A DNA stretch of 32,787 nt, from assembly GCA_937801655.1 (NCBI GenBank), contig CALMWC010000018.1, positions 1 to 32,787 on the forward strand, written 5' to 3'. The notes under the pieces were generated by a model that worked only from the letters and a program-made list of their open reading frames with translations, ran no database searches and was not told the DNA's origin. Below, in pieces: positions 3,167-26,866 of this stretch. The DNA comes from an uncultured Gammaproteobacteria bacterium. Its GTDB lineage: Bacteria > Pseudomonadota > Gammaproteobacteria > Steroidobacterales > UBA11654. Each line of letters starts with the position of its first letter. Position 1 is the stretch's first letter. The position numbers were made by a program, and so were the translations under genes.

Positions 3167-3843
3167 TGATGCAAACAATACTAATAGTCGAAGATGAAAA
3201 AAAATTAGCCCATATTCTATCGGACTATTTGAAAAGAGATGGGTTTAAAACAGAAATGATTGATGATGGAATTGAAGTCGTACCATGGGTTAAAGCAAAC
3301 AACCCTGACCTAATATTACTTGATTTGATGCTACCAAATGCAAATGGTAAAGATATTTGCAAAGAAATCAGAACCTTTTCTAAAGTCCCAATTATTATGG
3401 TCACCGCTATGATCGATGAAGTTGATAGATTGATTGGTTTGGAATTGGAAGCAGATGATTATATATGCAAGCCCTTTAGCCCTAAAGAAGTTGTAGCCAG
3501 AGTTAAAACTGTTTTGAGAAGATCGGATCCTGATTACATCAATACAGACCCTTTAAAAGGTTTTGTGGTTAATGCTGAAAACTATTCCATCATTCTAGAA
3601 GGGAAAAAATTGGACTTAACACCAGTGGAATTTAGAATCTTGTCCATGTTTATTAACTACCCAGGTCGAGTTTATAATCGAGATCAAATTCTAAATATTA
3701 TATTTGAAGATGGCAGAATTGTTCTGGATCGAACGGTTGACACACACATCAAGAATCTAAGAAAGAAATTACAAGCTATTATGCCCGGTCAAGAATATAT
3801 TCGATCAGTGTATGGAATTGGCTATAGTTTTGAAGTGAGTTAG
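3166..3843 (+). CDS. baeR: BaeR-like OmpR-family response regulator
   Basis: 225 residues from the ATG at 3166. The receiver domain has the acidic pair VEDE, phospho-acceptor Asp in LLDLMLP (about residue 53), the switch Thr in MVTA and Lys in ICKPFSP. The stretch running from MVTAMIDEVDRLIGLE into EADDYICKPFSPKEVVARVK is very close to BaeR. The C-terminal winged helix ends VDTHIKNLRKKL and VYGIGYSFE as in OmpR/PhoB regulators. A TTG at 3163 is also in frame, but ATG 3166 has AAGG 7 nt upstream and overlaps the kinase stop by one base. It ends 2 bp from the convergent gene at 3846. Probable targets include the divergent Spy-like gene. Confidence 0.9.
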   Translation: MMQTILIVEDEKKLAHILSDYLKRDGFKTEMIDDGIEVVPWVKANNPDLILLDLMLPNANGKDICKEIRTFSKVPIIMVTAMIDEVDRLIGLELEADDYICKPFSPKEVVARVKTVLRRSDPDYINTDPLKGFVVNAENYSIILEGKKLDLTPVEFRILSMFINYPGRVYNRDQILNIIFEDGRIVLDRTVDTHIKNLRKKLQAIMPGQEYIRSVYGIGYSFEVS

Positions 3844-3845
3844 TT

Positions 3846-4436
3846 CTATTTTTTCTTAAACACTCTATAAGGCTCATAATCCTTTAGAATTCCGTATTCT
3901 CCACTATAGACATAACCAAAATAGTTTTCGAATAGAAACATTTTTGGAGGGTAAAAAGTAAAGGTAGAGAACATAAATACCAATGTTGCATAACCAGTTA
4001 TAATTAGTCGTTTTGAGGGGCGATTAAATTGAGGCCTAACCATAATCTTGTAAGCCACGACAGAAGCTAAAGTGAGTCCAAAGAACATAGTTGCTATGTC
4101 GTATTCAAAGAAACCCTTTCCATAAATAGGGATAGAAATAGACAAGTATCCATAAAATGAAACAATAACTCCCAATGGAACAGCAATCAATGAGGCTAAC
4201 TTGGCTAACCAATAGTTGTTTGCAATATCTCTGGTGTAAGTATATTGAACTAAGGCAAAAACTAATCCTGGCCAAAAATACATTTTTAAATGCTCCCAAG
4301 TGCTTTCATTGACCGATGATACGAATGCTAAAGGTGTCCAAAACTCACTTAATTCAAATGAAAAATGGAGTGCTGAACCTGCCAAAGCTATCCATATATA
4401 GCTTCCAACTTCCCATAATATTAATCTTTTTTTCAT
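3846..4436 (-). CDS. DUF6512-like integral membrane protein
   Basis: 196 residues with about six hydrophobic helices. The conserved segment VSSVNESTWEHLKMYFWPGL (about residues 39-58) matches my memory of the DUF6512 signature (AVNESVWEHLK followed by a WP-containing helix); no function is established. It is the last gene of a minus-strand run after the alpha/beta hydrolase and the HupE-like protein, 16 bp behind the latter, so co-transcription is likely. A role in metal or small-molecule handling with HupE is only a guess. Confidence 0.6.
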   Translation of the reverse strand: MKKRLILWEVGSYIWIALAGSALHFSFELSEFWTPLAFVSSVNESTWEHLKMYFWPGLVFALVQYTYTRDIANNYWLAKLASLIAVPLGVIVSFYGYLSISIPIYGKGFFEYDIATMFFGLTLASVVAYKIMVRPQFNRPSKRLIITGYATLVFMFSTFTFYPPKMFLFENYFGYVYSGEYGILKDYEPYRVFKKK

Positions 4437-4452
4437 AGTGAGTGCCTATCCA

Positions 4453-5049
4453 TTAAATAAATACAGAGGTTAAGAAATATAAACCTGAAAGAGCGATGCC
4501 AAAACCAGCAACCCTTAAAATAATTTTCCCCGAATTGTAATGAGTTGAAATGTCAGCAAGAATCAAACCAGTAATGTGCAGCATTATAGTGCCCATCATA
4601 AAACCACTGACATAAGGAATTGGTTCAGCAACCGTTGGTATTTCTTCGCCATGGGCATAGCCATGAAAAATAGCAAAGACTCCAACTGCAATCATTGCAA
4701 AATTACTTGGAATTGTTTTATCAGCCGCTAAAGCACTACCTAATAATAGAACGGAGAGTGCTATACCAATTTCATAGCCTGTCAAACCTTCAATATTAAT
4801 TCCAACTAAACCACCAATAAACATAACTATCACAAAGGTACTGGGCACGCCCCATATTGCTTTACCACCAATTTGTGCACTGATCATGCCAACACTAACC
4901 ATTGCTAACAAATGGTCAAATCCCAATACAGGATGAGTAATGCCACTTAGAAATGGACCATAAGGAAGAGAATTTGCTTCATGTGATTGAACTGCAAAAG
5001 GAGCTAATGCTAAACAGAATAGTAAAAATTTATTGATTGTTTTTTTCAT
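4453..5049 (-). CDS. hupE: HupE/UreJ family membrane protein, probable Ni/Co permease
   Basis: 198 residues with a signal-like N-terminus (cleavage near VQSHEA, residues 20-25) and about six membrane segments. Both family hallmarks are present: HPVLGFDHLLAMVSVG (residues 39-54, with His39, Asp45 and His46) and FAIFHGYAHGEE in the middle, whose His and Glu residues are thought to bind nickel or cobalt in HupE/UreJ. It lies 14 bp downstream of the alpha/beta hydrolase, so they probably form one operon. No hydrogenase or urease gene is in the window, so the metal and its consumer are unknown. Confidence 0.82.
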   Translation of the reverse strand: MKKTINKFLLFCLALAPFAVQSHEANSLPYGPFLSGITHPVLGFDHLLAMVSVGMISAQIGGKAIWGVPSTFVIVMFIGGLVGINIEGLTGYEIGIALSVLLLGSALAADKTIPSNFAMIAVGVFAIFHGYAHGEEIPTVAEPIPYVSGFMMGTIMLHITGLILADISTHYNSGKIILRVAGFGIALSGLYFLTSVFI

Positions 5050-5063
5050 ATCTCGATAACACC

Positions 5064-6032
5064 TTATTCACTTAAAAATGCTATAACCTTTCTGTTGACT
5101 TCTTCTGGTTGATCATAAATAGCAGCATGACCTGCGTCATTAATTACTTCAACCTTCATATTAGGAATCAGTTTTTTTATTTTTTTCCTTATCTTTTTTG
5201 GATTGTATAAAACTTCAAATTCACCAAATATTAATAAACCTGAATTCTTAAAGCTTACTAATCGTTTCTTATCCACCGAGAAGAAAAACTTACCAATTAC
5301 TTTCAATGCTTTGATGTAGTTGACTCTAGAATTGCTTTCATTATAGATGCCCAATGATTTATCCACTCGGTAAAAACGAGTGCAAAGTGCCATGCCTCTT
5401 GCTAATTGTCGATCAAATGAACCGAATGTTTTTCCTGAACGTGGTTTTGAGAAAGAAGATGCTGTTAAATCACCTTCAAGAACATCGGCATCTTTTTGTT
5501 TAGCCATCGCTCTTGAAAACCATTGATGAAATGGAAGTCTAGCTCTCGCTAAACCTGTAGGACCGCACATAACAACTTTGTCGATTAATTCAGATTTTGA
5601 AATAGCCATATCCATCGCCGTCGTTCCGCCAGTACTAACTCCTATAATGTGAGGTCTATTCAATTCCAATGAAGTAATAACATCTTCTAACCAATTGGTG
5701 TAATCATCATTAAAAACTGAAAGTGGGTTTGGGTCACTCTTTCCTGGCTGCCCAACAATATCAAGTGCATAAACCTTAAACTTTTTTGAGAGTTCATTGA
5801 TTTGCTTTCTCCAAAGAGGTGCACAACCGGCTACTCCAGGGATCAGAATTATAGGTTTAGAATTATCATCACCTGCAGCAATAACATGAGTTTTACCAAA
5901 CCTTGTATCTGCATAAACTGAATGATGTTCTACAGTAATTTCACTTTGAACGCGATTATACCAATCCATTATTTTTTCAAAACCCTCTTCAGACTTATAG
6001 AGTTTCATTTGATTGTTGAGGTTTTCAGACAT
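5064..6032 (-). CDS. Alpha/beta hydrolase
   Basis: 322 residues with the full alpha/beta-hydrolase layout: oxyanion-hole strand IILIPGVAGCAPLW (about 61-74), nucleophile elbow GVSTGG with Ser133, and catalytic histidine His302 in DAGHAAIYDQPEEV. The acid after strand 6 (FGEFEVLYNP) appears to be Glu rather than the usual Asp. There is no signal peptide, so it is cytoplasmic. The substrate cannot be predicted; relatives include esterases, epoxide hydrolases and C-C hydrolases. First gene of a probable three-gene unit with HupE and the DUF6512-like protein, starting about 90 bp downstream of tRNA-Leu, so read-through from the tRNA promoter is possible. Confidence 0.82.
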   Translation of the reverse strand: MSENLNNQMKLYKSEEGFEKIMDWYNRVQSEITVEHHSVYADTRFGKTHVIAAGDDNSKPIILIPGVAGCAPLWRKQINELSKKFKVYALDIVGQPGKSDPNPLSVFNDDYTNWLEDVITSLELNRPHIIGVSTGGTTAMDMAISKSELIDKVVMCGPTGLARARLPFHQWFSRAMAKQKDADVLEGDLTASSFSKPRSGKTFGSFDRQLARGMALCTRFYRVDKSLGIYNESNSRVNYIKALKVIGKFFFSVDKKRLVSFKNSGLLIFGEFEVLYNPKKIRKKIKKLIPNMKVEVINDAGHAAIYDQPEEVNRKVIAFLSE

Positions 6033-12958: not shown

Positions 12959-12980
12959 ATTTTCTCCTTGATACTAAAAA

Positions 12981-13052
12981 TGGAGCGGGAAACGAGATTC
13001 GAACTCGAGACTTCAACCTTGGCAAGACTAGGTTCTACTATCTCTTTACCGC
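12981..13052 (-). repeat. tRNA-Gly-like copy 1 (left boundary of module A)
   Basis: Positions 12981-13026 match the 3' half of the intact tRNA-Gly (CCA end to anticodon stem) with two mismatches in the T stem. From 13027 the sequence keeps only a faint tRNA 5'-half resemblance (TTCTACTATCTCTTTACCGCC). The sharp loss of identity at the anticodon stem is what tRNA-targeted integration leaves as a distal att site. It cannot be a working tRNA-Gly because the anticodon and D stems are disrupted. Confidence 0.85.
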
Positions 13053-13266
13053 CCTTGTAAAAATCCCCTACACTTTATCCTATAGGGTACATAGCATTAT
13101 CATTGAATATTAAATAGGCTACGTCAAGTAGCAGTGACACCATAAGTGGCACATAAATTAGCCATTAAAAAACCACCCTACTATGCGCCTTATCCCTAGA
13201 TTGTTACAAACATTGATCTATTTCTGATCTATGTCTGATCAATCATCATTTGAAATCAATAGAGTA
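13027..13266. repeat. Left-end block of module A (paired GTGNCAC half-sites and GATC iterons)
   Basis: The first ~125 bp are highly similar to 15271-15394 in module B, including AGTGACAC (13133) and AGTGGCAC (13145) with a 12-bp period. An unrelated stretch of about 60 bp follows, then a second shared block with GATC at 13215, 13226 and 13237, exactly 11 bp apart, ending in ATTTGAAATCAATAGAGTA. No gene fits here. The layout resembles arm-type and accessory-protein sites beside a recombination core (inference). Confidence 0.75.
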
Positions 13267-13302
13267 TTTTGTTTTGTGTCATACGATAGGTAAGATGTCC
13301 GT

Positions 13303-13995
13303 ATGGCACTAAAGATAATAGGAGCAGGCTTTGGAAGAACTGGAACACTCTCTCTGAAGGTTGCTCTAGAGAAGCTTGGTTTTGGTCCTTGTCATCATAT
13401 GAAAGAAGTTATTCTCAATGATGAACAAACAAATTACTTTTATCATGCTTCACTCGGCGAACTAATGGATTGGGATGAGGTCTTCAAAGATTATCAATCG
13501 GCTGTAGATTGGCCTGCAATTGCTTACTATAAAGAATTAGCTGAGAAGTATCCCCATGCAAAAGTCATTCTTAGCGTTAGGGATGCGAGTGCTTGGTATG
13601 ACAGTGCAAGAGGTACGATATATCAAGTTCCCCTTAACTTTCCAAAATGGATTAGAAAGATCTTTCCAAGAAGTGATCGCCTCATGAAAATGATGCATAC
13701 CACAGTATTTGGCCCTCCATTTATGAACCGCTTTGAGGACAAAGAATTTGCTATGGAGGTATTTAATACCCATATTGAAACAGTGAAGAAGAGTATTTCT
13801 CAAGATCGACTATTGGTTCATACTGCAAAGGATGGTTGGAAACCACTATGTGAATTCTTGGAAGTACCCATACCAGAAGAGCCATATCCATGGGTCAATG
13901 ATTCAGTTCAATTTAAGAGAAGAATCTTATTCATTAAGTCTCTCAAATGGCTTCCACTCATTATTCTATTGATGTTGTCAGCCTATTTGATCTAA
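13303..13995 (+). CDS. Sulfotransferase-family protein with C-terminal membrane anchor
   Basis: 230 residues. The N-terminus holds the PAPS 5'-phosphosulfate loop motif GAGFGRTGTLSLKVALEKLG (7-26). KVILSVRDASAWYDS (about 89-103) corresponds to the 3'-phosphate-binding region, and FNTHIETVKK and WKPLCEFLEVPIP are typical of the Sulfotransfer_4-like group, often found in marine bacteria. The end is a hydrophobic helix (about 208-228), so the enzyme is probably tethered to the inner membrane. Acceptor unknown. First cargo gene of module A, 36 bp after the iteron block. Confidence 0.82.
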   Translation: MALKIIGAGFGRTGTLSLKVALEKLGFGPCHHMKEVILNDEQTNYFYHASLGELMDWDEVFKDYQSAVDWPAIAYYKELAEKYPHAKVILSVRDASAWYDSARGTIYQVPLNFPKWIRKIFPRSDRLMKMMHTTVFGPPFMNRFEDKEFAMEVFNTHIETVKKSISQDRLLVHTAKDGWKPLCEFLEVPIPEEPYPWVNDSVQFKRRILFIKSLKWLPLIILLMLSAYLI

Positions 13996-13999
13996 ACTT

Positions 14000-14110
14000 A
14001 TGAGAGCTGCAAGCTATTTGATGAATGCTCAGCTAGTAAAAGATGTAGCAGAAGATGGCTTACTAAAAGCTGGTGGATTTTCTCAAGTAAATGAAGAACC
14101 AACAGATTAA
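14000..14110 (+). CDS. 36-residue ORF, possible gene remnant
   Basis: The open frame starts ATGAGAGCTGC, 4 bp after the sulfotransferase stop, and encodes a peptide beginning MRAASYLMNAQLVKDVAEDG and ending NEEPTD. Its composition is coding-like, but there is no clear ribosome-binding site and I recognise no family. Its stop codon lies inside the leader shared by modules A and B, so it may be the tail of a gene whose front was lost when cargo was exchanged. Confidence 0.3.
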   Translation: MRAASYLMNAQLVKDVAEDGLLKAGGFSQVNEEPTD

Positions 14111-14124
14111 AAAGGAGAACTAAA
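14103..14124 (+). repeat. Shared cargo leader, copy in module A
   Basis: 22 identical bases (beginning CAGATTAAAAAGGAGAAC) also occur at 16988-17009 in module B. Both contain a strong AGGAG ribosome-binding site and both precede an exported protein. In B an ATG follows; here the corresponding codon is ATC. Confidence 0.8.
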
Positions 14125-14534
14125 TCAAAAACCTACTACTTGGCATCATTGCCATACTGTTCAGCTTTAATGGTTGGGCAGAAGATAACCTTAGAAAAAG
14201 CATCATGTTTGATGATGCAATTGTGAAAATAAAAATCCCTCAAACACTTTCCAATGAAGCCATTCTCGGAAAGAAAATTTTTGAGTCTAATTGCGTTGAA
14301 TGTCATGGTAAAAATGCAGTTGGGAAAAAAAAGATAGGGCCACCATTGATTCATAAAATTTATGAGTCCAGTCATCATAATGACTCAACATTCTATCGAG
14401 CAGTTGAAATGGGTGTTCGAGGTCATCATTGGACCTTTGGTGACATGCCGGCTATAGATGGTATAACAAGAAATGAGGTCAAAGCAGTCATTTCCTATAT
14501 TAGAGAATTGCAAAGAGAGAATAATATTTTCTAA
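14124..14534 (+). CDS. Exported class I cytochrome c with ATC at the start position
   Basis: From 14124 the frame encodes 136 residues: a signal peptide (KNLLLGIIAILFSFNGWA, cleaved before EDN), then a monohaem domain with CVECH, IGPPL and axial Met in FGDMPAIDG, ending in VKAVISYIRELQ. The first usual start, ATG 14205, would drop the whole signal peptide, which a c-type cytochrome needs for haem attachment in the periplasm. AGGAG lies 6 nt before an ATC codon, and a stop (TAA) directly precedes that ATC, so no upstream start exists. The gene is therefore start-mutated, uses AUC weakly, or contains a base error. Likely a small periplasmic electron carrier of the type seen near copper oxidases. 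Confidence 0.78.
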   Translation: MKNLLLGIIAILFSFNGWAEDNLRKSIMFDDAIVKIKIPQTLSNEAILGKKIFESNCVECHGKNAVGKKKIGPPLIHKIYESSHHNDSTFYRAVEMGVRGHHWTFGDMPAIDGITRNEVKAVISYIRELQRENNIF

Positions 14535-14551
14535 AGTAAGAAGAGGAATTC

Positions 14552-15172
14552 ATGTCACCCGATCTGATTTTATTGTTCATACCCACTATTGCATCTATTT
14601 CATTTACACCTGGGCTATGCATGACATTGGCATTCACATTAGGTCTGTCGATAGGTTACCAGCGAACACTATGGATGATGCTGGGAGAACTAATCGGTGT
14701 CGCAACTGTGTTCACGGCAACTTTTTGGAGCCTTAGTTGGCTTTTATCCCAAGATCCCATCTATTTCCAGATTATCTCATTCGTCGGAGGTGTTTATCTT
14801 TTATATCTTGCTTTCCAACTTTTTCGAGAAACACCTGAAACGATAAAAAATAGAGACCTTGAAAATACGCATCCGATGGCACTTGCTCTCCTCGGCTATG
14901 TAACAGCGGTCAGCAATCCTAAAGGGTGGGCTTTCTTGATGGCTTTGCTTCCAGGCTTTGTGTCAACGGATACAGAACTTCTCTCACAATTCATGATCAT
15001 GATGGGAATAATGCTAACAACTGAGTTTATATCCATGAGTGTATATGCAACAGGTGGACAGTGGCTTGCGAGTCGACTGAGCAATAGCAGAGGCATTGTG
15101 AATGCAAACCGAGTGGCAGCCACTATGCTGACTCTCGCAGCCTTGTGGGTTCTGAGCGGAGCACTTGGCTAA
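14552..15172 (+). CDS. LysE/RhtB-family amino-acid exporter
   Basis: 206 residues with six predicted membrane helices, the usual family size. The N-terminus has SFTPGLCMTLAFTLGLSIGY, equivalent to the family's PGP...G..G signature with Cys-Met replacing the usual residues after PGL. GGVYLLYLAFQLFRE and TAVSNPKGWAFLMALLPGF are also characteristic. AGAGGAA precedes the ATG. Last gene of module A, 17 bp after the cytochrome gene; its stop is 6 bp from the right-end block. Codons look more G+C-rich than in flanking genes, hinting at a different source. Confidence 0.87.
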   Translation: MSPDLILLFIPTIASISFTPGLCMTLAFTLGLSIGYQRTLWMMLGELIGVATVFTATFWSLSWLLSQDPIYFQIISFVGGVYLLYLAFQLFRETPETIKNRDLENTHPMALALLGYVTAVSNPKGWAFLMALLPGFVSTDTELLSQFMIMMGIMLTTEFISMSVYATGGQWLASRLSNSRGIVNANRVAATMLTLAALWVLSGALG

Positions 15173-15178
15173 TGAAAG

Positions 15179-15222
15179 CCCTTTATAATAAGGCTTTCAT
15201 ACATTTGGATAACTTAAAGGAA
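15179..15222. repeat. Right-end block of module A
   Basis: 44 bp beginning CCCTTTATAATAAGGCTTTC and ending AAGGAA, joined directly to tRNA-Gly-like copy 2. About 40 positions match 17674-17719, which is joined to the intact tRNA-Gly. GAAAGCC (15174) and GGCTTTC (15193) can pair as a hairpin but lack a T run, so I do not call a terminator. Confidence 0.8.
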
Positions 15223-15294
15223 TGGAGCGGGAAACGAGATTCGAACTCGCGACCTCAACCTTGGCAAGGTCGAATTCTACTATCTCTTTTCCGC
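15223..15294 (-). repeat. tRNA-Gly-like copy 2 (junction of modules A and B)
   Basis: Positions 15223-15270 are identical to the first 48 bp of the intact tRNA-Gly complement (CCA end through the anticodon stem). The 5' half diverges abruptly after that. This copy is a hybrid: its left flank matches the intact gene's flank and its right flank matches copy 1's right flank, as expected for the junction of two tandem insertions. Confidence 0.9.
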
Positions 15295-15481
15295 CTCTGT
15301 AAAACTCCCCTACACGTTATCCTGTAAGGTTCATAGCCTTATCATTGAATATTAAAAGGGCTACGTCAAGTAGCAGTGACACGTAAAGTGACACGAAACT
15401 AAAGTGCTCTATTTGCGAGTGTTTTTTATGATCTATTTCTGATCTAAACCTGATCAATTGACATTTGAAATCAATGGAGTA
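15271..15481. repeat. Left-end block of module B
   Basis: Counterpart of 13027-13266. The shared parts are the first ~125 bp, which include AGTGACAC at 15375 and 15387, and the block with GATC at 15430, 15441 and 15452, again at exactly 11-bp intervals, ending ATTTGAAATCAATGGAGTA. The stretch between them is unrelated to module A. The stretch to 15542 also holds a 15-codon ORF (15492-15539) ending 3 bp before the next gene, which I cannot support as a gene. Confidence 0.75.
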
Positions 15482-15542
15482 GTTTTAAGGTATGAAAAAA
15501 CTAATCCTAATGTCAGCAGAAATTCAGGAGTGTACTTGAAAA

Positions 15543-16469
15543 ATGTCTAAACCAAGAAAAAAAATACTTAAGTTTTTTAGTTTATTAATCGTTCCAGCCG
15601 TTCTTACTCTTGTTCTATTCTCTCAAGATGCAGAACCTTCAAATTATTTTGCAATACCGTTAGAAATTTTTTGGGTGCTAGCATATATATATTTAGCACT
15701 TTGGACAATAAGAGGTGTATGGAGGTTAATTTTTCATCCACCCGGAGAAGACTCGGTAAGATTTAAAGAATCATCTGCACCGATTAGAGCGAAATGGCTG
15801 AAAGACAAAATAAAATACTCTAGCAGTGAAAAAAAAGAAGCAAAATATAAAAAGGAGCTAGACTCTTTGGCAGAGAATTATGATATTGACCCACCAAAAA
15901 CTCCGGAGCAGATCCTAAAATCGCTTAAGAACGACCAAACAAAAGCACTTAAAGAAGCTCAGGATTCTGATTCTAGAGACTTAAATTTGTGGCGGTTGAT
16001 AACTATCACATTACAAGGGTTTGGCGAAGCTTTGGATACTATCAAGAGCGAATATGATCCACTTGTGCGCTTAGCAATTGTGTATATGTATGTAGAGCAA
16101 TTAAGCGATGAATATTCATCCAATGAGTCATCTTCGTTAGGTAAATTTTCCTACAAATTCTTTAAACAGGAGTTATCTGATGAAGATTGGGAGATCAATT
16201 TCGAAGGCACTGGTCCTGACGAGGGGGATTTCGAAGTCCCATCACCTTGGGGAAATATAATACAAGATAAAATTCAATCATCATATAAAGAGTTGCCCGA
16301 ACATGAAACAAGAAGCAACATCTGTGTAATGTTTTGCACAGACTTAGTCTCTCTTATAGATGATGATGACTTGATACAGAGATTTATATCCTTGGCACGA
16401 GATACTTTAACCGAATCAGGTTTTATGACTAAGTCTGCAGAAGGTACTTTTTCTTCAATGGAACTCTAA
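15543..16469 (+). CDS. Membrane-anchored protein of unknown function (module B cargo)
   Basis: 308 residues. A basic N-terminus is followed by two hydrophobic helices (about 10-27 and 36-58), then a large, highly charged and acidic cytoplasmic part: helical, with KEAKYKKELDSLAENYDIDP (possible coiled coil), an Asp/Glu-rich middle (ELSDEDWEINFEGTGPDEGD) and a Ser/Asp-rich tail. I recognise no domain or catalytic motif. AGGAG lies 12 nt before the ATG. The next gene starts 1 bp after its stop, so the two are almost certainly made together and may form one complex. Small size, unknown family and location in a mobile module make a defence, toxin or stress role possible, but nothing in the sequence shows it. 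Confidence 0.7.
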   Translation: MSKPRKKILKFFSLLIVPAVLTLVLFSQDAEPSNYFAIPLEIFWVLAYIYLALWTIRGVWRLIFHPPGEDSVRFKESSAPIRAKWLKDKIKYSSSEKKEAKYKKELDSLAENYDIDPPKTPEQILKSLKNDQTKALKEAQDSDSRDLNLWRLITITLQGFGEALDTIKSEYDPLVRLAIVYMYVEQLSDEYSSNESSSLGKFSYKFFKQELSDEDWEINFEGTGPDEGDFEVPSPWGNIIQDKIQSSYKELPEHETRSNICVMFCTDLVSLIDDDDLIQRFISLARDTLTESGFMTKSAEGTFSSMEL

Positions 16470-16470
16470 A

Positions 16471-16962
16471 ATGTCCCTTTCAGAAAAAGAAAAAAATTAT
16501 ATAAAAAAAAATATTGAGTCTGATAGCGATTTAGATCTAGAAATAATTATTGATGTAATAAACAAGAAAAGAGATCCTGACGATCAACTTGAGATAGAGG
16601 ATCTTACCGAATATATTGAAACACTTTCCAGCGGCAAAAAGAGTTCTAAAAAACATCTAAAAAAAGCAAAAGAAATGAAAAAATACAAAGATTTAGAAAC
16701 GCTGATTTTAGAGACAACTAATATAACGGCAGGGGTAATTGAAAATCTTCTTCCAGTATTAATTGATGACATTCTGACTCCCCAGAAACCAAAAGATTAT
16801 ACGATAGTTAAAGCTGCTGTGACTGAAGGTTTAGAGAATGATGTTAAAAAAATGATGTCAATTGGGTGGATACCATTTGGGGGTGTTGGTGTAGATAGAG
16901 CTGGTATGGGAGGAGTTGCATTAGGTCAAATGACATACTTTCAAGTCATGGTTAAATATTAA
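16471..16962 (+). CDS. Protein with C-terminal DUF1737-like domain (module B cargo)
   Basis: 163 residues in two parts. Residues 1-100 are highly charged, mostly helical and Lys/Glu/Asp rich (SDLDLEIIIDVINKKRDPDD; KKSSKKHLKKAKEMKKYKD). The last 55 or so residues, from DYTIVKAAVTEGLENDVKKM through SIGWIPFGGVGVD to YFQVMVKY, follow the DUF1737 pattern (strand, helix, GW.P.GGV, YYQAMVK), a small domain of unknown biochemical role. The N-terminal part may be a partner- or nucleic-acid-binding region (inference). Separated by one base from the membrane protein before it. Confidence 0.65.
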   Translation: MSLSEKEKNYIKKNIESDSDLDLEIIIDVINKKRDPDDQLEIEDLTEYIETLSSGKKSSKKHLKKAKEMKKYKDLETLILETTNITAGVIENLLPVLIDDILTPQKPKDYTIVKAAVTEGLENDVKKMMSIGWIPFGGVGVDRAGMGGVALGQMTYFQVMVKY

Positions 16963-16987
16963 TTACAGAAAAGGATTTAACCAAAGC

Positions 16988-17009
16988 CAGATTAAAAAGG
17001 AGAACTAAA
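16988..17009 (+). repeat. Shared cargo leader, copy in module B
   Basis: The same 22 bases as at 14103-14124, with an AGGAG ribosome-binding site, here followed directly by the ATG of the lipoprotein gene. The preceding bases ACCAA are also shared, with a small indel between. Confidence 0.8.
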
Positions 17010-17276
17010 ATGAAAAAAATTATGCTTAAGATTAAATATATTATTCCAATAGCCCTCATGATATTTATTACTGCTTGTGACAATCGAACTGATGCAGAAA
17101 AGAGATATGACGAAGCTAGGGAAAACTTTGATAGAGATTTGGACAGGATAATAGAAAAGGGAAAAAGAGACTTGGATAAAAATAGAAGAGGGGTGGAAAT
17201 GGAGTACTACCAAAAGTGCAAAGAAAACGCCTATGGCACAACTATTTGTACTACAGAATACGGTTATCCCGATTAA
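17010..17276 (+). CDS. Small lipoprotein with charged coiled-coil region
   Basis: 88 residues. A basic, hydrophobic signal ends in the lipobox ITAC (Cys23), followed by DN, where Asp at +2 favours inner-membrane retention. The mature part is a single very charged helix (AEKRYDEARENFDRDLDRII, EKGKRDLDKNRR) that could form a coiled coil, then a short tail with two cysteines (KCKENAYGTTICTTEYGYPD). No family recognised. Expressed from the strong leader shared with the module A cytochrome. It may work with the preceding pair, since all three are in module B and two are membrane-associated. Confidence 0.7.
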   Translation: MKKIMLKIKYIIPIALMIFITACDNRTDAEKRYDEARENFDRDLDRIIEKGKRDLDKNRRGVEMEYYQKCKENAYGTTICTTEYGYPD

Positions 17277-17673
17277 AAATAAGTTATCTTCGCCTTTGTC
17301 TGCTAACCAAACCAGAACCAGTTCAGGTTCGGTACGGACATCAACTTTTGATTCCAGTGTCTACAAAGAAACTGGAATGCGAAACCTTCGATTCATCAAT
17401 AGCTAGAAAGAACCTAGACCTCCCAAAAACTAACAAACTGAGCAACCTCAGTAAACAGCTTGAGCTAACAAGCCTTGTCAGCTAATTCACAAAGGTTGGA
17501 TATACAAAAAGTATTTCCTATCTTTACTCAAATTAGTGTATTTACCAAAAAAAGGTAGAAAATCCGAAAGTGCCACGTAAAGTGGCACGTGTTTTTAATG
17601 GGTTTCAAGGGATTGGAAAAAGGTATGAACCCTACACAGTATGAAAGTCGTATGACGACCAAATCATATCAAT
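17277..17673. other. Non-coding or decayed stretch at the right of module B
   Basis: About 400 bp with no convincing gene. It holds an 8-bp perfect inverted repeat (ATTCCAGT 17351-17358, ACTGGAAT 17371-17378), the GTGCCAC/GTGGCAC motif at 17569-17589, and the small palindrome GTCGTATGACGAC at 17647-17659. An open frame through 17216-17485 overlaps the lipoprotein and looks like chance or the tail of a lost gene. Confidence 0.5.
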
Positions 17674-17719
17674 CCCTTTATAATAAAGGCTTTCAGACAT
17701 TTGAGATAACTTGAAGGAA
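17674..17719. repeat. Right-end block of module B
   Basis: 46 bp beginning CCCTTTATAATAAAGGCTTT, matching 15179-15222 at about 40 positions, and joined directly to the CCA end of the intact tRNA-Gly. It is the immediate downstream flank of the tRNA. Confidence 0.8.
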
Positions 17720-17795
17720 TGGAGCGGGAAACGAGATTCGAACTCGCGACCTCAACCTTGGCAAGGTTGCGCTCTACCAGCTGAGCTATTCCCGC
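17720..17795 (-). tRNA. glyW: tRNA-Gly (GCC), intact; integration target
   Basis: 76 nt on the minus strand with encoded CCA. Acceptor arms GCGGGAA and TTTCCCGC pair, the D arm is TAGCTCAGCTGGTAGAGC, the anticodon loop TTGCCAA gives GCC, and the T loop is GTTCGAATC. It is the only complete one of four tRNA-Gly-related sequences here. Two partial copies to the left keep its 3' half and one to the right keeps its 5' half. It corresponds by position and type to E. coli glyW behind pgsA, though here pgsA is 13.4 kb away. Confidence 0.97.
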
Positions 17796-24343: not shown

Positions 24344-24820
24344 TTATTTGTACAGACTTATATTTTGAATATTATTAATTTCTTGGGCATTGCTTTTAAT
24401 TATTTTGATTGAACTAGGGTCAATCGAGGAAGGAAAATAAAATTCTATGCTTGCATTGTTATTGGCACCAATGCTTCTTTGGCCTTCATAACCGATATGT
24501 TGTGCATGAATTTCAAATGGATTGCCAATATCAATTGTGAATAGTTCTTTATCCTGATTATCCCTCAAAGAAATTGTGTATAGACCTTTGCTCACTCTAT
24601 TTTTATTTTTTTTATAGAAATTCTTAATTCTATTTGTTGCAACAACTGTCTCTATGGGTGATGAAACAAGAAAATACTCGGATCCTGTGAGTGTGATTTT
24701 TTTATAGATATCCTCAGTTGAAAGTTCAATGTTTTCAATAGAGTTTATATTAGCCATCAAAGGAGTAATAACACTGAAAATAATGAACAGGATTGAAATA
24801 TTAACTACATGCTTACTCAT
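24344..24820 (-). CDS. Exported protein of unknown function coupled to the M64 peptidase
   Basis: 158 residues from ATG 24820, whose ATGA overlaps the peptidase stop, with GGAG about 10 nt upstream. A further in-frame TTG at 24835 is less likely. The signal peptide spans about residues 1-23 (MSKHVVNISILFIIFSVITP, LMA). The mature part is strand-rich, ending FYFPSSIDPSSIKIIKSNAQ; no cysteine and no motif that I recognise. The overlap implies joint expression with the peptidase; a substrate-binding or inhibitor partner is possible but unproven. Confidence 0.65.
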   Translation of the reverse strand: MSKHVVNISILFIIFSVITPLMANINSIENIELSTEDIYKKITLTGSEYFLVSSPIETVVATNRIKNFYKKNKNRVSKGLYTISLRDNQDKELFTIDIGNPFEIHAQHIGYEGQRSIGANNNASIEFYFPSSIDPSSIKIIKSNAQEINNIQNISLYK

Positions 24821-26866
24821 TGATATTTGCTCCAATTAATCATAAGTGTTCCACTGGTGCATCCATCTGTATAGCCATAATTATATGAATCATAGGCCTG
24901 GTTATTAAAATTAAAAGGTCTATTTTGATAATCAACACCATCAGAGATCTTATTAAATGTTCCCGTTGATCTATCAAATAAACCTAAATAACAATCGTTT
25001 GGATCGTCAAGTAGATCTGGAACTAGAACAACCCCAGTTATATCTTTTACTTTCCATGTATAAGTTATCCAGGCATCGACTGATGGCCTATCAAAAGTAG
25101 CTTCCATTACATTATTTTTTGAAGTATCCAATACATTGTCTTTGTACCACTCAACTCTATACTTAGTAGTATCTAATGCGCCTCCATCAACAATACCCAC
25201 TTTCATTATAAGACCCGTGTAACCTGTATCAGCATCGCCAACAAATGCGGTGGTATCTCCAAATGCAGACCTAAAAAGATTCTCTGTTGATGCAATAGCA
25301 AAAGCCTCTGTCTGAACATCAATATAATCACTACAATTATTTTCAGCAAAAGTAGTAGTCCAACAACCAGGTGTTTGATCTTCGCATCGACTGCATCCCA
25401 TAATTGAATATTGTTGAGGTCTATAAGATCCTTCTTCAGAATAATAACTTCCTTCAAACAATCCAGTACCAATCTGACCAGCTGTTGCATGATAGCCAGG
25501 CACTAGGGTTAGGTCATTAATAAAATGCTTCCACTTAATGGATGCGGGATCTGATTCAACACCTATATTCACATCCCATTTTGTATAGCTTTCAATTTCT
25601 TCGGTGGTATATTCTCTCTCTCCATCAGAAGAATACTCATCGCCCAGATAGGCATGAGCATGTCCTAGCTCATGAGCAAAAGTGCGGTGTGTTCTCTCAG
25701 CAATGCCCTGAACCATGGTTGGAGGTCTTCCATAGTCATAAGAAGTAACACCCCTGCCCTGGAGGTTTGGAATTATTGCGGTAACATCTGGAAAGATATT
25801 AGGAAACAATAGTTCTTCAAGAGCACTAAGTTTTTCATTATCCCAACAAAAAATATCATCAGACCAATCACTGCATTCACCATCTGCAGTTAAATCGACA
25901 GAAGATGCAGCCATCTGGATTTAATGGCTCGACTATCATGACATTAAAAAATCCCTCAAAATATTGTGTTGCTGATGAATTTAAAAGTAAATTGATCGAC
26001 TTCAGCATGACTCTTCTAAACTCATCCACATCCGCTTGATTCTCAGCAGAATCAGATAAAATTAGCATATCTGTGTTTCTTCTACTGTCGCTATAGACAT
26101 CGTAAGAACCCATTAAATTGTATACTTTATACTTATCTTCAGTGCGATTATTGGTTGTAAAAAAAGAACTAAAAGTGCTATCACTGCAGGCATTATCTGC
26201 ATCACAGACTTCTATAGAGGCTGGAAAATACCCCGCATCAATAATTGAACTCACATCCAGCTCGAAATCCAAAATATCTCCATTCACAGGCATTGTAGTA
26301 ACCTCTGGTTTCTTTGCAGTGACCGGTATAGAGATATTATTAATAGTAGCGGTGTAAGTATTTAGATCTCTGTCGCTATCATTGTCTGTTACGGTCCCCG
26401 TAATCTTGACAATTCCATTCTCAGAAAATAATAAATCTTTTTCTGTTGGTGGCGAGTCAAAGATTAATTCAGGTTTATCATTCACAGCATTAACAGTTAT
26501 TGAAACAGTTGCCAAAGCAGAAGTGTAAGTTTCAGTGAGGGAGTATGCTTTAAAAGTAAATGAATCAGTGCCACTGAAATCTGCATTAGGTGTGTAAACG
26601 AAATCACCAGTACCAGCTAAGGTTAATTGTCCATTGGTTGGTAACTCTCCTAATTGTATAGTAATGGAACCGGTTCCATTGGTTGAGTATGCAACCTTGC
26701 CACTGTATGAATCATCTTCATTAACAGAAAAAGATAACGCGGTTGCAGTGAGAAAAAAGGGACTGGATCCACCTCCACCGCCACCTCCACCGCCGCCACA
26801 AGAAGCTAAATTAGTGTAATAGATGTAACTAAAAGTGTTTTAAAAAATGAAGAGATCAATTCTCAT
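24817..26866 (-). pseudogene. M64-type metallopeptidase lipoprotein with cadherin-like repeats, broken by two frameshifts
   Basis: Read through, this is about 680 residues: lipoprotein signal, lipobox LASC, a nine-Gly run, a cadherin/VCBS-like repeat (SFSVNEDDSYSGKVAY to FSGTDSFTFKAYS, then VSITVNAVNDKPEL), a second beta domain, and a peptidase domain with FAHELGHAHAYLGDEY, the HExxH...DEY zinc pattern of IgA-peptidase M64 proteins. Break 1 (about 26808-26812): the signal ISSFFKTLLVTSITLI lies one frame away from LASC; one more T would join them. Break 2 (about 25910-25916): NPDG runs into a stop, while AASSVDLTADGE continues one frame away; one fewer G joins them. The two shifts cancel. The start is unresolved (TTG 26859, or ATG 26866 if a further shift is allowed). 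Gene decay or assembly indels. Confidence 0.72.

Follow-up and report, generated by a model that had tools for sequence, protein, structure and literature searches.

A cytochrome c gene with ATC at its aligned start codon and a chimeric-looking signal peptide in a gammaproteobacterial draft genome

Introduction

In integrons, short genes that are unrelated to one another form cassette arrays behind a short DNA element that recurs, and the variable lipoprotein families of mycoplasmas join a conserved 5' end to a variable remainder. Tycheposons offer a comparison case of integrative islands at tRNA genes, and infC, with its AUU start codon, offers one of initiation at a codon other than AUG. Further comparison cases of non-AUG starts are the GTG variants of lacI (PMC11445065) and the GTC start of sigR (PMC5472188). 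For ATC itself, a passage of PMC5597208 counts it as a rare start codon of E. coli, and the relevant passages of PMC4633059 describe its activity in mycobacteria, when preceded by a Shine-Dalgarno sequence, as low but above background. PMC6925171, in the parts that treat ATC, places it among the high and also among the low starts, and so settles nothing; PMC10158994 shows that IF3 disfavours weak third-base pairs; its passages on this point contain no figure for AUC paired with the ordinary anticodon.

The locus described here lies in a 32,787-nucleotide stretch of DNA (contig CALMWC010000018.1 of assembly GCA_937801655.1), hereafter the window, whose forward-strand positions are used throughout. 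It holds a c-type cytochrome gene that appears to combine several features of these systems: an ATC where a start codon is expected, signal-peptide DNA that belongs in part to a dispersed repeat, and a tRNA-flanked setting.

Genomic setting of the cytochrome gene

Two tandem modules, A and B, occupy window positions 12979–17795 and are flanked by tRNA-derived direct repeats; the cytochrome gene lies in module A. The surrounding features are as follows.

12979..13152 (−), degenerate copy of a tRNA-Gly 3' end with its flank, left edge of module A (sequence comparison)
13303..13995 (+), Sulfotransfer_4 protein (Pfam)
14000..14110 (+), 36-codon ORF between the sulfotransferase gene and the leader, without Pfam match (ORF list, Pfam)
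14552..15172 (+), LysE-type translocator (Pfam)
15221..15394 (−), second degenerate tRNA-Gly copy, at the A/B border, 87% identical to the first (sequence comparison)
16992..17008 (+), second leader copy, in module B; one A separates it from ATG 17010 (exact-pattern genome scan)
17010..17276 (+), small lipoprotein-like gene, preceded by the second leader copy, without Pfam match (ORF list, Pfam)
17720..17795 (−), intact tRNA-Gly (GCC) bounding module B on the right (ARAGORN)

Pfam recognised no integrase among the sulfotransferase, cytochrome, LysE, and three module B proteins; integrase genes are present on a viral contig (L199) considered below. Orthologues of the cytochrome, 80–82% identical, occur in three of the nine other genomes of the genus (G002, G005, and G008), and no match was found in the remaining six, which are drafts of 77–92% completeness. 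The LysE gene lies 3' of the cytochrome gene in all three relatives, as it does in the window, and the DNA upstream of the cytochrome gene differs between the window and the relatives. In G008 and G002, a homologue of the sulfotransferase gene is found downstream of the LysE gene, an order that differs from that of the window, and neither cytochrome locus has a tRNA gene. It follows that the genes have moved in one of the lineages.

Start codon and leader

The following features define the 5' end of the gene and its frame.

14107..14123 (+), leader TTAAAAAGGAGAACTAA (exact-pattern genome scan)
14113..14117 (+), Shine-Dalgarno sequence AGGAG, 6 nt spacing (sequence, duplex energy)
14121..14123 (+), TAA stop, in frame and immediately 5' of the ATC (sequence)
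14124..14126 (+), ATC where the orthologues have ATG, ATG, and GTG (sequence, alignment)
14124..14534 (+), c-type cytochrome gene read from the ATC, with a chimeric-looking signal peptide and one CXXCH haem domain (translation, Pfam, three congeneric orthologues)
14205..14207 (+), next ordinary in-frame start, ATG (ORF list, translation)

As the original prediction had it, the ATC directly follows an in-frame stop and a well-placed AGGAG. Translation from the ATC reads KNLLLGIIAILFSFNGWA/EDN, and the frame remains open for 136 codons until the stop at 14532–14534; the gene is accordingly taken to extend over 14124–14534, and the first proposed boundary at 14103 belongs to the leader region. 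By eye, the N terminus comprises an n-region, an h-region, and GWA/ED, a putative Sec signal. The mature protein carries a single CXXCH haem motif (CVECH) and matches Pfam Cytochrom_C (PF00034) with 49.1 bits against a cut-off of 21.3, as expected of a class I c-type cytochrome. Its Ka/Ks against the relatives is 0.06–0.09, with Ks saturated; the mature cytochrome is thus under purifying selection, though a low ratio is silent on the time since the ATC arose.

Between the TAA and the ATG at 14205 the frame contains no ATG, GTG, or TTG, and that ATG lies 3' of the signal peptide, which bears out the claim that the first ordinary start would remove the export signal. The other in-frame starts of translation table 11 (ATC 14145, ATT 14148, ATA 14154, and CTG 14157) all fall within the hydrophobic core, and a survey of frames and starts found no ordinary start from which a functional cytochrome could be obtained. 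Initiation elsewhere, either at ATG 14205 without a signal peptide or at an upstream ATG with readthrough of the TAA, appears very improbable. Both frames are present, the upstream one being the 10-codon MKNQQIKKEN with its stop at 14121, but the first would yield a cytochrome lacking an export signal, the second has no Shine-Dalgarno sequence by eye and gives no hint of TAA readthrough, and the aligned starts of the relatives coincide with the position of the ATC.

The predicted Shine-Dalgarno duplex of the window gene (−8.7 kcal/mol) is stronger than those of the orthologues (−7.5, −3.8, and −4.3 kcal/mol), and no stable RNA structure was predicted over the start (z −0.36). Provided that the ATC is real, weak initiation at this codon from the strong Shine-Dalgarno sequence is the likeliest reading of the sequence. 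A genome-wide scan found two exact copies of the 17-base leader, at 14107–14123 and 16992–17008, and none of the backwards control pattern. The reported sharing of this leader with an ATG-initiated gene in module B is therefore correct as to the exact copy; the ATG at 17010 is preceded by one additional A, however, making the spacing there one base longer.

Alignment with the orthologues supports the position of the proposed start but not its codon: the orthologues begin at the same place, with ATG in G005 and G008 and GTG in G002. The ATC is private to the window genome, and a conserved ATC start is thereby ruled out. In all three orthologues the start codon overlaps the stop of the preceding gene (ATGA or GTGA), and this overlap has been lost in the window. 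Such a loss is consistent with an incipient pseudogene, in which a real mutation has left the exported cytochrome no longer translated. Further consistent with this reading, ATC is a poor start, persisting at 0.2% when selected in the presence of a Shine-Dalgarno sequence (passages of PMC4633059), and the cytochrome looks dispensable, given its absence from six of the nine other genus genomes, drafts as they are. Yet the other codons show neither stop nor frameshift, the haem motif is intact, and the strong Shine-Dalgarno sequence is retained; we consider a pseudogene unlikely.

A two-part signal peptide

Similarity searches divide the leader and signal peptide of the window cytochrome into two parts.

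14106..14155 (+), 5' half: leader, start, and codons 2–10, 90% identical to G007:C79:3415-3465 (search, alignment)
14158..14187 (+), 3' half of the signal peptide: dispersed repeat, 30/30 bases identical (search with G002 DNA)

The match of the 5' half (E 7.7e-13) is to the leader and first codons of a gene in G007 that encodes a 68-aa protein, MKNLLLGIIAI..., from an ordinary ATG start. The 3' half is identical to the dispersed signal-peptide repeat in the form present in the G002 cytochrome gene. Relatives of both halves have an ordinary start, from which the window differs by a single base, G to C. This two-part similarity makes the signal peptide look chimeric and the ATC a private single-base change; a merely slowly diverged orthologous signal peptide was ruled out, as the 5' half fits another gene better. 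The original prediction overlooked both the chimeric appearance of the signal peptide and the dispersed-repeat nature of the DNA that usually encodes it. The supposed donor is not the G007 gene itself, which is a relative of it. No viral contig matched in an exact scan that combined the leader with all possible third bases of the start codon.

On its contig, the MKNLLLGIIAI gene adjoins capsid genes (capsid-protease). A NUMOD3/GIY-YIG-type endonuclease gene, itself downstream of DNA that resembles the module border of the window, ends at its leader (locus L107, G007:C79, 2271–3640).

A private change of this kind may also be an error of consensus or assembly in the third base of the start codon, the true genome having an ordinary start. 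This is a serious rival, quite possible though short of probable in our judgement, because the ATC is private, the nearest relative of the 5' half has ATG, and a second gene is broken by one base. Relatives of both halves carry ATG or GTG at this codon, ATC is found at the start of only one of 46 copies of the signal-peptide repeat (that of the window), and the window genome is a draft of 24 contigs and 82% completeness. On the same contig, an M64-type peptidase gene is split by a one-base length difference relative to an intact frame in G007. Against this, an error would have had to strike exactly this base and leave the rest of the 136-codon frame intact, and the frameshift in the peptidase gene may itself be real. 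The purifying selection on the mature part and a Shine-Dalgarno sequence stronger than those of the orthologues also speak for a real ATC. The peptidase gene (24817–26515, −) is read in two frames, with one extra base relative to the G007 homologue, whose frame is open over 687 aa and which is 87% identical, and 93% over 279 aligned positions.

A dispersed repeat of signal-peptide DNA

The repeat to which the 3' half belongs is about 53 bp long, MKKLILISALLFSFNGWA. A 71-bp query from G002 identified 46 places in all ten genomes of the genus, cytochrome genes included, several of these matches spanning only 19–40 bases. Similarity between copies begins at the start codon and ends near the cleavage site. 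Among 117 sampled genomes of the order, matches were confined to the ten of the genus and one other member of the same family (G010); none of the 106 sampled genomes outside the family had one. A control query, 71 bp spanning the start codon and signal-peptide region of the TonB-type receptor gene of the window, returned only itself and one 21-bp match.

Proteins of at least 60 aa are encoded from the aligned start at 39 of the 46 places. Together with three viral examples, these make 42 proteins, which blastp of the mature parts sorted into 20 cargo groups, the first of which unites an amidohydrolase with the thioredoxin-like proteins, probably wrongly. Thioredoxin-like, MORN-repeat, S15 peptidase, L-PSP, beta-lactamase-type, and chlorophyllase-type proteins are among the cargo. 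One match (G000:C1:5920) is non-coding, and three lack ATG or GTG at the aligned place; by eye, an in-frame ATG stands slightly upstream in two of these three, and a run of A shifts the frame of the third. A copy near 45960 of locus L179 (G009:C9) appears frame-shifted in an A run after the start, through slippage or sequencing error. A truncated copy in L108 (G007:C55, about 5490–5513, −) reads MKKLILISV and then a stop, resembling a failed fusion; the gene just after it is presumably a GFA-type enzyme gene.

Synonymous codons distinguish common descent of the repeat from convergence. Their agreement was excessive both among copies chosen by DNA similarity, a biased set, and among copies chosen by peptide alone. 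The peptide-based search gave 50 places, 26 of them at 80% identity or more, and 24 of those 26 were among the 46. Between copies with different cargo (26 copies, 10 cargo groups), the synonymous codon was shared in 0.74 of 3758 cells, as compared with a null mean of 0.40 and maximum of 0.45 in 300 recodings with window codon usage. The excess agreement indicates common descent of the repeat DNA, not convergence, and rules out protein-level selection for one peptide as the sole cause. A result that runs against our reading is that, within the cytochrome family, the signal-peptide cassette is not better conserved than the mature part (0.79 vs. 0.84, window copy included). Among the papers listed in literature searches, none describes such a shared signal-peptide repeat, which does not prove that none exists.

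The repeat as a candidate recombination joint

Five pairs of copies are 92–100% identical over the 500 bp that precede the repeat and carry different cargo, the change falling exactly at the repeat. One upstream gene, which we take to be DedA-family-like, leads to the cytochrome gene in G008, to a thioredoxin-like gene in G005, and to a MORN gene in G001; another, presumably AGE-like, precedes the cytochrome gene and an unrelated gene on two G005 contigs. The shared stretch is only 24 bp in two further pairs, and in four pairs both the upstream DNA and the cargo are common to the two copies. Because the repeat begins with ATGA, it can provide the stop of an upstream gene together with the start and export signal of a downstream one: in 16 of 41 copies (a count made without a control), an upstream frame of at least 60 codons terminates at the TGA contained in the opening ATGA or GTGA of the repeat.

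Repeat copies are also found on L199 (IMGVR_UViG_3300020473_001896, 16 kb, IMG/VR), a satellite-like viral contig on which a tandem array of three genes, all bearing the shared signal peptide, occupies 3834–5115. This contig also carries two integrases, an AAA ATPase, and capsid-protease fusion genes, and the repeat genes lie between the integrase and capsid genes.

From these joins we infer that the repeat may behave like a recombination joint for exported proteins, with homologous recombination as the presumed process. The main doubt is that some of the cargo swaps may be misjoins of short-read assembly at a 53-bp repeat; suspicion falls most on G005, two contigs of which share 500 bp at 100% identity. 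We offer only tentatively, at somewhat below an even chance, the wider proposal that in this family the repeat is a recombination joint at which homologous exchange replaces one exported protein by an unrelated one in frame, both in host arrays and on phage-satellite-like elements; the window cytochrome would then be one of the products, its signal peptide a hybrid and its start damaged.

Discussion

The reading that we favour, and consider rather probable, is that the window cytochrome belongs to a family of exported proteins sharing one signal-peptide-coding repeat, and that its 5' end was replaced. Its leader, start, and first ten codons would have given way to those of another gene borne on a mobile element, similar to the MKNLLLGIIAI gene of G007, yielding a chimeric yet still plausible Sec signal peptide. 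One base at the start of this chimera departs, ATG to ATC, from what the relatives of its two halves have. Should that base be correct, the ribosome would most likely still start at the ATC, weakly and guided by the strong Shine-Dalgarno sequence at 6 nt, and the cytochrome would be made and exported at a low level.

The start codon alone is a curiosity, and possibly an error; its setting tells more. The repeat is present throughout the one family that tested positive, ahead of unrelated exported proteins. If the proposed role is correct, a DNA repeat encoding a secretion signal would be a simple natural route by which new genes acquire export signals and by which the secreted proteome is reshuffled. 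Short-read assemblies of these small-genome marine gammaproteobacteria may also be misjoined at such repeats.

Like the described non-AUG starts of bacteria, this gene combines an intact frame and a weaker start codon with a retained Shine-Dalgarno sequence. It differs in that the codon is ATC, is known from the sequence of one draft genome, and shows no indication of a regulatory role. The tandem, tRNA-flanked modules are reminiscent of phage satellites and tRNA islands such as PICMI (PMC10803314), and both the relative of the 5' half (G007:C79) and the tandem repeat copies (L199) sit on elements that carry capsid and AAA genes, with integrase genes also present in L199. Unlike those systems, the two window modules have no recognised integrase, and capture of host genes is here only presumed. 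With integron cassettes the locus shares short unrelated genes behind a recurring short element, although here the recurring element itself encodes the signal peptide. With the variable lipoproteins of mycoplasmas it shares constant signal-peptide DNA, a variable remainder, and suspected recombination; the cargo here, however, consists of unrelated enzyme families and not of one antigen family.
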